The notes beneath the pieces were generated by a model. It did no database searches, was not told where the DNA came from, and was given only the letters and a program-made list of their open reading frames with translations. This document shows, piece by piece, positions 1,030-47,841 of a stretch of DNA of 64,000 bases; position 1 is the first letter of the stretch, and the number at the start of each line of letters is the position of its first letter. This stretch comes from Petropleomorpha daqingensis (GTDB lineage Bacteria > Actinomycetota > Actinomycetes > Mycobacteriales > Geodermatophilaceae), in assembly GCF_013408985.1 (NCBI RefSeq), contig NZ_JACBZT010000001.1:2852001-2916000 (forward strand), read 5' to 3'. A program made the position numbers and the translations under genes.

Positions 1030-1916
1030 GCCGGGTCGTCGTCCCACGTGCGCTGGTGGCGGCGATGACGTCGATCCACGGCGCACGCGGCGCCGGCTGG
1101 TGCGCGCGGCTGCCCGCGGTCGTGACCTCCCGTGCCCGCTCGTGGGGGGTGGTGCTGGGGGAGCCGTTCGACGCGACCTACCACTGGGTCGCGCCCGGAC
1201 GGCGGGGGAGCGCCGAGGTGGTGCTCAAGGTCGGGATCGCCAACGACGAGGGCGACCTGGTGCGCGAGGCGGGCGTCCTCGCCGCGTGGGACGGTGCGGG
1301 GGCCGTGCGGCTCCTCGAGGTCTCGGTGTCGGCCGATTCCGTGGCCCTGCTGCTGGAGCGGGTGCGGCCCGGCACCGACCTGACCGGCCTGCCGGACGAC
1401 GAGGCGTTCCCGCTGCTCGGCCGGGTGGGGCGGGCCCTGCACTCCGGTGGGACCGCGCGGCCTCCGCTGGCGGTGGAGCCGGCGGCGCTGGCCGACCTGC
1501 GCACCGGTCATCCGCTGCTGCCCCCGTCGGTGACCTCGGCCGCCGCCGACCGGCTCGACGCCCTGCTGGCGTCGGCGACGGCCCCGGTGCTGTGCCACGG
1601 GGACCTGCACCACGGCAACGTGCTGGTCGGCGCCGACGGACCGGTGGCGATCGATCCGCGCGGGGTGTGGGCCGAACCCGCGCTCGACGTCTCGGTGGCG
1701 ATGCTCAACCCGCTGGGCACGCTGCCGCGCGACGCCGCCGCGTTGGCCGCACTGCTCGAACGGCGGCTGGCCCTGCTGTGCCCGGCGATGAGGGTGGACG
1801 TCGACCGCGGCCGGGCGTGGACGGCGGTCTACGCGGTGGTCTCGGCGGTGTGGGCGGCGCAGGACGGGCTCGGGATCGAGGAGGAGAGCCTGGCGGTCGC
1901 CGCCGTCCTCGGCTGA
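1026..1916 (+). CDS. Aminoglycoside/hydroxyurea-type phosphotransferase (APH family)
   Basis: A 296-residue kinase-fold protein. CHGDLHHGNVL is the catalytic loop (Brenner motif), and AIDPRG about ten residues later is the metal-binding motif. The order and spacing fit the APH(6)/hydroxyurea phosphotransferase family, which phosphorylates small hydroxylated compounds. The true substrate is unknown and clinical resistance should not be assumed. GTG 1026 overlaps the dapC stop, giving translational coupling. ATG 1065 is an alternative start. Confidence 0.8.
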   Translation: MSRVVVPRALVAAMTSIHGARGAGWCARLPAVVTSRARSWGVVLGEPFDATYHWVAPGRRGSAEVVLKVGIANDEGDLVREAGVLAAWDGAGAVRLLEVSVSADSVALLLERVRPGTDLTGLPDDEAFPLLGRVGRALHSGGTARPPLAVEPAALADLRTGHPLLPPSVTSAAADRLDALLASATAPVLCHGDLHHGNVLVGADGPVAIDPRGVWAEPALDVSVAMLNPLGTLPRDAAALAALLERRLALLCPAMRVDVDRGRAWTAVYAVVSAVWAAQDGLGIEEESLAVAAVLG

Positions 1917-45088: not shown

Positions 45089-46240
45089 TCAGTGCCGGAC
45101 GGGCGTGAGTCCCAGGGACATGCCGGACAGGCCGCGCTGGCGGGTGGCCAGGCCGTCGGCGATCTTCGCGAGCGCCTGCGCCGCGGGCGCCTCGGGTTCG
45201 GCGAGGACGATCGGCGCACCGGCGTCCCCGGCCTCGCGCAGGCGGGTGTCCAGCGGGATCTGACCGAGCAGCGGCACCCGGGCGCCGAGCGTGCGGGTCA
45301 GCGCGTCGGAGACGGTCTGCCCGCCACCGGAGCCGAAGACCTCCATGCGTGAGCCGTCGGGCAGCTCGAGCCACGACATGTTCTCGATGACGCCGACCAC
45401 CTGCTGGTGGGTCTGCGTGGCGATCGCCCCGGCGCGCTCGGCCACCTCGGCGGCGGCCAGCTGCGGCGTGGTCACCACGAGGATCTCGGCGTTGGGCAGC
45501 AGCTGGGCGATGGAGATCGCCATGTCGCCGGTGCCGGGCGGCAGGTCGAGCAGGAGGACGTCGAGGTCGCCCCACCACACGTCGGCGAGGAACTGCTGCA
45601 GCGCGCGGTGCAGCATCGGGCCGCGCCAGACCACGGGGGTGTTGCCCGGGGTGAACATGCCGATCGAGATGATCTTCACGCCGTACGACTGCGGCGGCAT
45701 GATCATGTTGTCGACCTGGGTGGGCCGGTCCTCGGTGCCCAGCATCCGCGGCACCGAGTGGCCGTAGATGTCGGCGTCCACCACGCCGACCGACAGCCCG
45801 CGCTTGGCCAGCGCCGCGGCGAGGTTGACGGTGACGCTGGACTTGCCGACGCCGCCCTTGCCGGAGGCCACCGCGTAGACGCGGGTGAGCGAGCCGGGCT
45901 GGGCGAACGGGATCACCGGGTCGGCGGCGTCGGTGCCGCGGACGTTGCGGCGTAGCTCGGCGCGCTGCTCGTCGCTCATCACGTCGAGCACGACCTGCAC
46001 CGAGGTGACCCCGGGGACCGCGGACACGGCCGTCGTCACCCGGCTGGTGATCGTCTCGCGCATCGGGCAGCCGGCCACGGTCAGGTAGACCTCGACCCGG
46101 ACGGCGCCGTCGGCGCCGATCTGCACGTCCTTGACCATGCCCAGCTCGGTGAGCGGCCGGTTGATCTCGGGGTCCTGGACGGTGGCCAGAGCCGCGTTGA
46201 CGGCGTCGAGCGCCGGCGAGCCGGTCAGCGTGTCCGACAT
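45089..46240 (-). CDS. mrp: Mrp/NBP35-type iron-sulfur carrier P-loop ATPase
   Basis: A 383-residue protein. MIP18-like domain at about 5-95 (VQDPEINRPLTELGMV), then an ATPase with deviant Walker A GKGGVGKSSVTVNLA and LDLPPGTGDMAISIAQ. Functions as Fe-S cluster carrier. ATG 46240 is taken, with AAGGAG twelve bases upstream. The region upstream to 46413 (173 bp) shows no gene. Confidence 0.93.
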   Translation of the reverse strand: MSDTLTGSPALDAVNAALATVQDPEINRPLTELGMVKDVQIGADGAVRVEVYLTVAGCPMRETITSRVTTAVSAVPGVTSVQVVLDVMSDEQRAELRRNVRGTDAADPVIPFAQPGSLTRVYAVASGKGGVGKSSVTVNLAAALAKRGLSVGVVDADIYGHSVPRMLGTEDRPTQVDNMIMPPQSYGVKIISIGMFTPGNTPVVWRGPMLHRALQQFLADVWWGDLDVLLLDLPPGTGDMAISIAQLLPNAEILVVTTPQLAAAEVAERAGAIATQTHQQVVGVIENMSWLELPDGSRMEVFGSGGGQTVSDALTRTLGARVPLLGQIPLDTRLREAGDAGAPIVLAEPEAPAAQALAKIADGLATRQRGLSGMSLGLTPVRH

Positions 46241-46413
46241 CGTTGCCTGTGTCTCCTTCGACGGGGAAACCGTGCCCTCACCGGCCGTGCCAGGCGAGGA
46301 ACGGATCTTCCGCAACTGTACGGCGGGCGATCCGGCGTGCCGTCGGTCGGCGGGGTGATCTGCTGCGCACCCGTCCGAGACCCCTCAGACGCAGGACGCC
46401 CTGAGGACGACGC

Positions 46414-46459
46414 GATCGCCCGATGCCCGAGCGGAGACCTCAGACGGAGCGTTCTCCGC
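46414..46459 (+). promoter_or_regulatory. Promoter-like module, copy 1
   Basis: GATCGCCCGATG at 46414-46425, CTCAGA at offset 13, and ATG exactly 34 bases after the motif. AGCGTT six bases before the ATG could be the -10. Copies 2 and 3 are at 46572 and 46787. Confidence 0.55.
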
Positions 46460-46573
46460 ATGAGCAGCCCTCTCGAGTTGACGCCCCTCCTGAACGCCCT
46501 CCGTGTCGCCGACTCCCGTCGCCGGCCCCGCCGTCGCCGGCTCAGGGGTTCCCCTGACCGGAAGATGGGGTGA
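46460..46573 (+). CDS. 37-residue Arg-rich small protein (putative)
   Basis: Short ORF with no known homologue that I recognise. A neutral N-terminus (MSSPLELTPLLNALRVAD) is followed by an Arg-rich tail (SRRRPRRRRLRG). Support comes from the upstream module shared with two neighbours and the similar make-up of the next small protein. Could bind nucleic acid or be a leader peptide. Existence uncertain. Confidence 0.4.
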   Translation: MSSPLELTPLLNALRVADSRRRPRRRRLRGSPDRKMG

Positions 46574-46616
46574 TCGACCGATGTACCGGCCTGGCCGCGG
46601 GCCCGAGGCTGGCACC
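46572..46616 (+). promoter_or_regulatory. Promoter-like module, copy 2
   Basis: GATCGACCGATG at 46572-46583, one change from copies 1 and 3, with GTG 33 bases downstream. GAGGCT six bases before the GTG is the -10 candidate. It begins inside the stop codon of the preceding small ORF. Confidence 0.5.
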
Positions 46617-46742
46617 GTGACCACCGACGAGTCCGACCCGACCTTCCCCGAGCCGCTCGACGCCGACGAGCGGGCGCTGCGCCGCGACCTCGTGCTGCTG
46701 ACCAGGCAACACCGGCGGCGGCGCCGCGGCCGGCGCTTCTGA
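46617..46742 (+). CDS. 41-residue small protein with Arg-rich tail
   Basis: Acidic N-terminal half (TTDESDPTFPEPLDADE) and a basic C-terminus (RQHRRRRRGRRF). Not a family I recognise. Codon use fits coding DNA. GTG 46617 is set by the module spacing; ATG 46581 in the same frame would start inside the module. Confidence 0.5.
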   Translation: MTTDESDPTFPEPLDADERALRRDLVLLTRQHRRRRRGRRF

Positions 46743-46786
46743 GGCCCTCAGATCCAGCGGCCCCGGCGTCCGGTCCAGAACTGCCC

Positions 46787-46832
46787 GATCGCCCGATGTC
46801 CGGGGCCACCCCTCAGAACCAGAGTCGTCGCC
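46787..46832 (+). promoter_or_regulatory. Promoter-like module, copy 3
   Basis: GATCGCCCGATG at 46787-46798, identical to copy 1, with CTCAGA at the same offset of 13 and ATG 34 bases after the motif. CAGAGT seven bases before the ATG is the -10 candidate. Confidence 0.55.
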
Positions 46833-47111
46833 ATGACGACGACGATGATCCGCAGCGAGACCACCACCTCCACCACCGACCTCCTCCGCGACGTCCTGCA
46901 CGCCACCCTCGACCGGGTGGCCGGCGAGGACCCCGACTCGTTCGACAGCCGGACCCCGGGCGGGCGCGAGCTGCTGTCGCTGGCCGCGCGCGCACGGCAG
47001 GCGGCCGGCTCCCTCGGCGCCGACGCCGGGACCACCGTCGCCAGCGGCCCCGGGATCGTCGTGGTGCGTGAGTTCGCGGCGGCCGTGCGGCTGCTGGACC
47101 AGGCCGCCTGA
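46833..47111 (+). CDS. 92-residue hypothetical protein
   Basis: A soluble, mostly helical protein with a Thr-rich N-terminus (MTTTMIRSETTTSTTD) and a C-terminal segment GIVVVREFAAAVRLLD. No recognised family. It follows module copy 3, and azlC has its own promoter 18 bp after the stop, so it is probably monocistronic. Confidence 0.65.
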   Translation: MTTTMIRSETTTSTTDLLRDVLHATLDRVAGEDPDSFDSRTPGGRELLSLAARARQAAGSLGADAGTTVASGPGIVVVREFAAAVRLLDQAA

Positions 47112-47129
47112 GGGCGTGCCGCCGGTCGT

Positions 47130-47142
47130 TAGGGTCGGCCGC
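47130..47142 (+). promoter_or_regulatory. Leaderless promoter of azlCD
   Basis: TAGGGT at 47130-47135, seven bases, then GTG 47143. Confidence 0.65.
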
Positions 47143-47841
47143 GTGCCGCGCAGTGCCCGCTCCGAGACGCTGCGCGACTCCCTCGGCCTCGGCCTGGCCG
47201 TCGGCCTCTACGGCGCCGCCTTCGGCGCGGCTGCCGTCGCCGCGGGCCTGTCCCCCTGGCAGGCCTCGGCGATGTCGCTGCTGATGTTCACCGGCGCCTC
47301 GCAGTTCGCGCTGATCGGCGTGATCGGCGCCGGCGGCAGCGCGCTCGCCGCGATCGGCAGCGCCCTGCTCCTCGGCACCCGCAACACCGTCTACGGCGTC
47401 CGCCTGCTGCCGCTGCTAGCCCCGCGCGGGTTCCGCCGGTTCACCACGGCGCACTGGGTCATCGACGAGACGACGGCGCTGGCGATCTCCGCGCCCGACC
47501 GCGTGCTGGCCCGCCTGGCGTTCCTCGTGGGCGGGGGCTCGATCTTCCTGCTGTGGAACGTCACCACGCTGGTCGGCGCGTTCGGGGCCGCGGCCCTCGG
47601 CGGTGCCGCGAAGGCGGCGCTGGACGCCATCGTCCCCGCGGCGTTCCTCGCGCTGCTGTGGCCGCGGCTGCGCAGGCCGTTCCCCGAGGCCGCCGTGCAG
47701 CGACGGGTGGCCCTGGGCGGCGCGGTCGTGGCACTGGTGCTGACCCCGTTCGTGCCGCCGGGCCTCCAGGTGATCGCCGCCGTCGTCGCGGTGGCCCTGG
47801 CCGGCCCGCCGCGCAAGGCCGCCGCGGAGGAGCCGGCGTGA
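47143..47841 (+). CDS. azlC: AzlC family branched-chain amino-acid exporter subunit
   Basis: A 232-residue membrane protein of the AzlC/YgaZ family (LMFTGASQFALIGVIGAGGS; GTRNTVYGVRL). With AzlD it forms a branched-chain amino-acid exporter. Its stop overlaps azlD by GTGA. GTG 47143 is set by the leaderless promoter. Confidence 0.9.
   Translation: MPRSARSETLRDSLGLGLAVGLYGAAFGAAAVAAGLSPWQASAMSLLMFTGASQFALIGVIGAGGSALAAIGSALLLGTRNTVYGVRLLPLLAPRGFRRFTTAHWVIDETTALAISAPDRVLARLAFLVGGGSIFLLWNVTTLVGAFGAAALGGAAKAALDAIVPAAFLALLWPRLRRPFPEAAVQRRVALGGAVVALVLTPFVPPGLQVIAAVVAVALAGPPRKAAAEEPA

Follow-up and report, generated by a model that had tools for sequence, protein, structure and literature searches.

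A putative promoter class linked to LAL regulator operons, with three tandem copies before small open reading frames in Petropleomorpha daqingensis

In MalT-type promoters, a STAND ATPase with a LuxR-type DNA-binding domain acts via short boxes upstream of the -35 element. Actinobacterial leaderless promoters follow the rule TAnnnT-N7-RTG, and SARP operators are built from directly repeated heptamers, spaced by about 11 bp, next to the core promoter. Part of the SARP rule also appears in the passages of PMC5930380 on PimR, whose boxes are CGGCAAG heptamers and which has no LuxR-type helix-turn-helix. LAL regulators are exemplified by SCO0877 and SCO7173 of Streptomyces coelicolor, in which 14 of the 23 LuxR-family genes are LALs; the family is described there as poorly studied (passages of PMC3282765). 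In phage T4, the gene e promoter forms the 5′ side of a hairpin, and in longer transcripts this hairpin masks the ribosome site (PMC3014915).

Here we describe a locus in a 64,000-nucleotide stretch of the P. daqingensis genome (the window) whose promoter class resembles each of these systems in part. With MalT promoters it would share several boxes and a proposed LuxR-type STAND ATPase, but here the boxes are CTNAG, are phased at about 10 bp and belong to a presumably autoregulated small-peptide operon. Short promoter-region repeats at a period of 10–11 bp are also found in the operator of the SARP-LAL regulator PimR, as covered in PMC5930380; in the present system the repeated box is CTNAG, and GerE is a domain of the linked regulator. 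A SARP operator was considered and rejected, since the boxes are CTNAG and most of them lie some 75 to 125 bases ahead of the predicted start. The spacing and the A(-11)/T(-7) pair are those of actinobacterial leaderless promoters, but T(-12) is replaced, and CCGATG, CTNAG and upstream boxes are added. The linked regulator is like the S. coelicolor LALs in its ATPase domain and C-terminal LuxR-type helix-turn-helix; the passages of PMC3282765 on these proteins describe no common promoter class or small arginine-rich partner, and one LAL there overlaps the gene for an 89-amino-acid protein. In contrast to T4 gene e (PMC3014915, in part), the hairpin is predicted here in bacterial LAL operons and not at the leaderless starts of the window. 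Searches of the open-access literature on LALs with small proteins, on leaderless regulons, on the box words and on Geodermatophilaceae gave no listing that describes the element.

LAL regulators are numerous in actinobacteria, so a conserved promoter linked to them matters. An exactly spaced promoter is a handle that names a presumably autoregulated operon and predicts start sites to the base. It also picks out partner peptides that lack a Pfam or NCBIfam match, and allows a test of whether translation is tied to the transcription start.

Three motif copies between mrp and azlC

With both strands searched, GATCGMCCGATG matched three times in the window, at 46414, 46572 and 46787, always on the plus strand, whereas shuffles gave a mean of 0.02 matches and none of 100 reached three. 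The positions ahead of three small open reading frames given in an earlier note on this DNA are thus confirmed. Start codons follow at 34 (ATG 46460), 33 (GTG 46617) and 34 bases (ATG 46833). CTCAGA occurs at offset 13 in copies 1 and 3, as that note had also seen, and is missing from copy 2. The features of the locus are as follows.

46384..46405, plus strand: two CTNAG boxes (CTCAG 46384-46388, CTGAG 46401-46405) upstream of promoter 1
46414..46425, plus strand: motif copy 1, GATCGCCCGATG, spanning the putative -35 region of promoter 1
46439..46443, plus strand: spacer element CTCAG of promoter 1
46447..46452, plus strand: candidate -10 of promoter 1, GAGCGT, 7 bases before ATG
46460..46573, plus strand: ORF1, 37 amino acids, arginine-rich, ATG at the predicted transcription start
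46541..46545, plus strand: CTCAG box upstream of promoter 2
46572..46583, plus strand: motif copy 2, GATCGACCGATG, in the putatively degenerate promoter 2, without spacer CTCAG
46605..46610, plus strand: candidate -10 of promoter 2, GAGGCT, 6 bases before GTG
46617..46742, plus strand: ORF2, 41 amino acids, arginine-rich C terminus
46739..46751, plus strand: CTGAGGCCCTCAG, two CTNAG boxes upstream of promoter 3, overlapping the ORF2 stop
46787..46798, plus strand: motif copy 3, GATCGCCCGATG, spanning the putative -35 region of promoter 3
46812..46816, plus strand: spacer element CTCAG of promoter 3
46820..46825, plus strand: candidate -10 of promoter 3, CAGAGT, 7 bases before ATG
46833..47111, plus strand: ORF3, 92 amino acids, a conserved gene; in genus g3 (Blastococcus and close allies), related genes also follow this promoter

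The three copies are not equal. The longer pattern CCGATG-N13-CTNAG-N4-A-N3-T is present in copies 1 and 3 and absent from copy 2, which has no CTNAG. A weight matrix gave scores of 64.3 for copy 3, 54.2 for copy 1 and -1.6 for copy 2, the best score elsewhere in the 64 kb being -4.2; the matrix was built from 50 aligned sites that include copies 1 and 3, making the scores of both partly circular. Up to 100 bp upstream, copies 1 and 3 have two CTNAG boxes each and copy 2 has one, and the 460-bp stretch of the window richest in CTGAG/CTCAG is this locus (7 of 52). As judged from these features, copies 1 and 3 appear to be full promoters and copy 2 a weak or decayed one. The motif itself is real, yet it appears to be one part of a longer promoter. 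Across the 5.38-Mb genome, GATCGNCCGATG occurs eight times and the reversed pattern not at all. None of the five matches outside the window has CTCAG at the fixed offset when the context is viewed by eye, and most of the five resemble coding sequence or a gene junction. By eye, the match at 812418 may precede a start.

ORF1, ORF2 and ORF3 (37, 41 and 92 amino acids) have no Pfam match. They lie between mrp (minus strand, 45089-46240; product domains ParA/NUBPL and FeS_assembly_P) and azlC (GTG 47143). The predicted fold of ORF3 is a bundle of three long helices (pLDDT 84.9), and the model had no PDB match at E ≤0.001. Relatives of ORF3 were found in six further genomes of 112, one with an in-frame stop. 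On reading the loci, five of the six (L011-L014 and L016) carry a common upstream block between mrp and azlC, consisting of ACTGCCCG(A/G)TCGNCCGATG, 13 bases, CTCAG and then the start codon, with one mismatch in L014. Neither the sixth relative (L015) nor the additional ORF3 copy of the own genome (L010) has the block. The L010 paralogue (1420-1791, minus strand) lies between smpB and a BTAD regulator gene; upstream of both block-less paralogues we saw, by eye, TGTGACG direct repeats with a 12-bp period.

The string GTGATCTGCTGCGCACCC stands upstream of copy 1, and the same or nearly the same string precedes the single promoter of the g3 relatives, so the window has three promoter–gene units where those relatives have one. 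In two other genomes (G028 and G032), the mrp/azlC place is occupied by a small arginine-rich frame, with an AzlC-like frame behind it. The azlC gene has its own leaderless-type promoter, TAGGGT-N7-GTG (window 47130-47145), and by eye a similar string stands in relatives; azlC thus need not belong to an ORF3 operon.

Anatomy of the promoter class and its predicted transcription starts

A fixed-spacing pattern independent of the weight matrix, CTGAG-N6-16-CATCGGNCGAYC, was found in 42 of the 112 family genomes and had no hit in the control, the gap being exactly 13 bases in 43 of the 47 matches listed. Allowing up to two mismatches, the block pattern with its -10 was found in 77 of 112 family genomes, with one control hit. 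The earlier note's reading of a repeated promoter- or activator-type site, to be sought in family relatives, gains support from this comparison.

Numbering from the G of GRTCG as position 1, 30 aligned family sites have G(-3), C(-2), C33, G34, A35 and T39 invariant and C37 and G38 nearly so; positions 1-5, 7-12 and 26-30 of this alignment were fixed or restricted by selection, while A35 and T39 were unselected. Relative to the predicted start, A(-11) and T(-7) are present in all three window copies and in 30 of 30 aligned family sites, whereas T(-12) is absent from the window, where G, G and C stand in copies 1, 2 and 3. In family f22 the inner -10 bases are changed (GAGTCT), with the A and the T kept. 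A -10 that resembles the leaderless TAnnnT without T(-12) fits a primary-sigma promoter that would be weak at -12 and activator-dependent. From the sequence we infer a -35 within ATGCCG and an 18-bp spacer. This corrects the earlier placement of the motif just upstream of the -35: the 12-mer would span the -35 itself, at about -46 to -35 from the predicted start.

Under model R1, sites mostly scored 30–66 bits and background up to about 21, with few values between. The own genome gave 52.8 for the LAL operon, 50.4 for copy 3 and 44.5 for copy 1, and the next value listed was 18.7. R1 drew on 47 of the 54 unique exact sites, to which L016 and copies 1 and 3 of the window were added, omitting copy 2; L068, L071, L081, the second L084 site, L089, L090 and L094 were left out as near-duplicate or doubtful. 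From later counts L062 (Akkermansiaceae), L035 and L039 were dropped as chance matches, and L094 from some. Relatedness among the genomes means that most of the sites are not independent. Comparison across genomes points to a promoter class that is real, conserved and tied to LAL operons; two full copies and one decayed copy of it appear to lie in the window.

Upstream of 54 promoters, CTNAGG/CCTNAG occurs 161 times in 5,994 bp compared with 79 occurrences in 238,628 bp of the loci around them, an 81-fold enrichment, and 47 of the 54 promoters have at least one box. The 177 CTNAG boxes of 72 promoters recur with a period of 10.2 bp (R 0.71, compared with less than 0.25 in 99.9% of random sets). 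Neither the box nor the period statistic allows for relatedness among the promoters, and the null assumes a uniform placement of boxes. Such phasing suggests a protein that would bind several boxes on one face of the helix.

Among 98 unique sites, RTG stands at position 47 in nine, two of them the window's own and eight without a Shine-Dalgarno sequence, compared with 1, 1, 0 and 0 start codons at positions 45, 46, 48 and 49; this count kept only sites with an upstream box, so Lentzea was dropped. Elsewhere, frames without a Shine-Dalgarno sequence start at position 38 (14), 58 (5) and 44 (3). The 14 at position 38 are GTGs formed by the conserved CGT plus G, and the starts at 58 and 44 are unexplained. 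Starts at 47 belong to ORF1, ORF3, L011-L013, L016, the Pseudonocardia-type L092, L097 and L099, both Lentzea L084 sites and the GNAT gene of G111; ORF2 and the G032 peptide start at 46. At the window locus the candidate -10 elements lie 7, 6 and 7 bases before the starts, with no Shine-Dalgarno sequence; at copy 1, a GGAG upstream, inside the -10 region, was flagged as one in the start count. Window-wide, TAnnnT-N7-RTG occurs eight times and the N6 form four times, compared with 1.6 and 1.9 expected under a Markov model, azlC being among them. The leaderless geometry proposed in the earlier note gains support from the comparison, and transcription at the window locus would start on the start codon.

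In members led by a Shine-Dalgarno sequence, the leader ahead of the start codon is complementary to positions 34-46. Native folds are more stable by 2.8 kcal/mol than the average obtained with arms exchanged between loci (44 of 54, p = 2.4e-6), and the Shine-Dalgarno sequence is freer without the left arm (0.53 vs 0.33, 43 of 54). Hiding of the Shine-Dalgarno sequence beyond that of a swapped arm was weak and not significant (33 of 54, p = 0.067). Comparison with shuffled leaders, on 47 sequences and with left arms within 31-52, gave moderate support (mean P 0.28-0.46). With a start at 46 or 47, the hairpin arm would not be transcribed from the promoter itself, while a read-through transcript would contain the arm and be harder to translate. 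We hypothesize, as this pairing suggests, that Shine-Dalgarno-led members are translated only from transcripts that start at the promoter; leaderless starts would give the same translation-start logic.

Association with LAL operons

At most of the family loci read, the block is followed by an open frame of about 43 codons, led by a Shine-Dalgarno sequence, and then by a regulator of about 1,000 amino acids; one example of the small frame is MTLHYPNPGLEAELAYRREVLQ...RRRRSR. In the own genome, the promoter, a gene for a 41-amino-acid arginine-rich peptide and a LAL regulator follow one another at G000:C1:2460577-2463833. The regulator gene (G000:C1:2460846-2463833) encodes 996 amino acids with an AAA_16 ATPase and a C-terminal GerE domain, that is, a LAL. 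Across 30 ungapped sequences, the small LAL-linked frame has a median pN/pS of 0.69, compared with 1.14 and 1.63 in the other frames, with 0.47 in the first 20 codons and 0.92 in the remainder. The frame looks coding by this measure; five small peptides of such loci tested had no Pfam or NCBIfam match. The earlier suggestion of a small regulon of short proteins stands in that the regulon would include short proteins, but the usual family target is the peptide and LAL operon.

Calling LAL orthologues with only seven candidates scored per genome and promoters at 25 bits or more, we found both in 80 of the 112 family genomes, neither in 25, a LAL only in four and a promoter only in three. The LAL-only genomes are G067, G069, G075 and G070, whose best site has 24.9 bits. 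The promoter-only genomes are G002 (25.7 bits, weak), G105 (28.9, weak) and G034 (51.5, strong; 76% complete), and at their loci (L201, L200 and L199, respectively) the downstream DNA matches sequence about 1.5 kb behind the own-genome LAL. This fits LAL loss in the three genomes; in G105 neighbouring DNA is present on both sides of the promoter, and a simple deletion is unproved. The small peptide frame of G105 is still open despite the lack of a LAL orthologue. Because promoter and LAL gene are adjacent, their joint presence shows that the promoter belongs to the operon, and does not speak to LAL binding.

The association extends beyond the family. A scan of the genomes of 84,980 species gave 50 stretches, of which 48 are actinobacterial, one is Bacillus-labelled (L013) and one is from Akkermansiaceae, the last being taken as a chance match. 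Exact sites with LAL-type frames downstream occur in Nocardiopsis, Pseudonocardia, Lentzea and Cellulosimicrobium. Inspection of three Amycolatopsis loci and of L094 showed no LAL. In a sample of 394 genomes of the class, 27 had matches, two of these from the family. Of the 30 places listed, 26 lie outside the family; a LAL-like frame, recognized by a P-loop motif match, is within 1 kb at 22 of these and was not seen at four. Most of the 22 also have a small arginine-rich frame ahead of the LAL-like one. A Nocardiopsis-like genome (G457:C44) has two sites with a LAL-like frame behind each, and Lentzea L084 has two leaderless-type promoter copies 282 bp apart.

At the window, ORF3 is followed by azlC and not directly by a LAL gene, the LAL operon lying elsewhere in the genome. 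Against a profile of LAL-linked peptides (L031 left out, being a query), ORF1 showed a weak likeness of 4.6 bits, with five of 250 shuffles as good and the best window decoy at 3.3 bits. The G032 peptide did better (7.4 bits, one of 250 shuffles as good), and its likeness is still weak. A relationship was unsupported for ORF2 (93 of 250 shuffles as good) and for the G028 peptide of the azlC locus (80 of 250). The interval between mrp and azlC is probably a second target of the LAL-linked promoter system, common to relatives.

Candidate activators and competing readings

We favour, as the probable explanation, a LAL-activated promoter class of sigma-A type, present here in three tandem copies as part of a small circuit with the LAL. 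Its -10, GAnnnT, would be of primary-sigma type, keeping A(-11) and T(-7) of the actinobacterial TAnnnT without T(-12); the -35 region would lie inside CCGATGCC, with a fixed CTNAG in the spacer and upstream CTNAG boxes about once per helical turn. Such a promoter would be weak unless activated. As its likely activator we infer the LAL whose peptide and regulator operon begins with the same promoter. The LAL would control itself and, in the own genome and several g3 relatives, the mrp/azlC locus, where three promoters would serve ORF1, ORF2 and ORF3 with leaderless transcripts.

The same promoter class could instead answer to another activator, such as a WhiB-like protein on sigma region 4 or a SARP/BTAD protein, with the LAL one more target. 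The link between LAL and promoter rests on adjacency, G034 has a strong site and no LAL orthologue was found there, none was seen at the three Amycolatopsis loci, and the ORF3 paralogue adjoins a BTAD gene. We nevertheless regard another activator as rather unlikely, given that 25 of the 28 family genomes without a LAL orthologue have no site of at least 25 bits, that a LAL-like gene adjoins the site at 22 of 26 loci of other families and that a diverged form of the motif is found at paralogous LAL loci. Less credible still is a start of transcription ahead of the conserved block, which would make the block a leader-RNA element that forms a hairpin close to the ribosome site; 46460 and 46833 would then not be leaderless. 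Such an element would account for the pairing of positions 34-46 with the leader in Shine-Dalgarno-led members (44 of 54, p = 2.4e-6), but starts without a Shine-Dalgarno sequence share one position in several genera, the invariant A35 and T39 fit a -10 at leaderless spacing and the box phasing of about 10 bp suggests DNA binding. Rfam, moreover, gave no match to the element: none in window 46200-47200, and across five loci only two tRNAs of L097.

CCGATG also resembles the -10 of flagellar/WhiG-type promoters, GCCGATAA, with CCGAT in common with the consensus quoted in PMC8325347, a paper whose passages also list Geodermatophilaceae among the families with RsiG. That consensus (-35 TAAA, -10 GCCGATAA) does not fit the window sequence, which has no TAAA about 15 bases upstream and no ATAA after CCG; start codons lie 33–34 bases past the motif and the targets are small peptides and LAL genes, making a WhiG-type promoter very improbable. 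An ECF sigma promoter, considered for the CGT, was rejected on reading because element order and spacing are unfit. Chance repeats or a functionless tandem duplication would accommodate three copies in 400 bp and the poor backing of ORF1 and ORF2 by homology; with the element kept at fixed spacing across genera, this reading is refuted for copies 1 and 3, possible for copy 2 and, as an account of the locus, barely conceivable.

A wider version of the LAL-activated reading is tentative. Several actinobacterial families would share a module of LAL, arginine-rich partner peptide and a promoter whose own transcripts alone are translated: these would be leaderless, or longer transcripts would fold the ribosome site against the -10/+1 strand. 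The peptide might be a partner of the LAL or a feedback signal, and mrp/azlC an outlying target with multiplied peptide and helical-bundle genes.

Diverged versions of the promoter accompany other LAL genes. Two tandem LAL paralogues lie in the own genome at G000:C1:2800579-2806640 (L187). Paralogous LALs in three genomes (L187, L188 and L189) have the variant CCGATCC in a divergent promoter that keeps the -10 A and T; this promoter is directed away from the LAL, towards another small peptide and a transporter gene. The peptides have 43 amino acids in the own genome and 26 in each of the two relatives, each with a CKG motif; the transporter of L188, the sole one tested, is MFS_1. An exported peptide with its own LAL sensor is possible at these loci. 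In G111, a CTTAG version precedes the leaderless-type GNAT gene, which is followed by a LAL.
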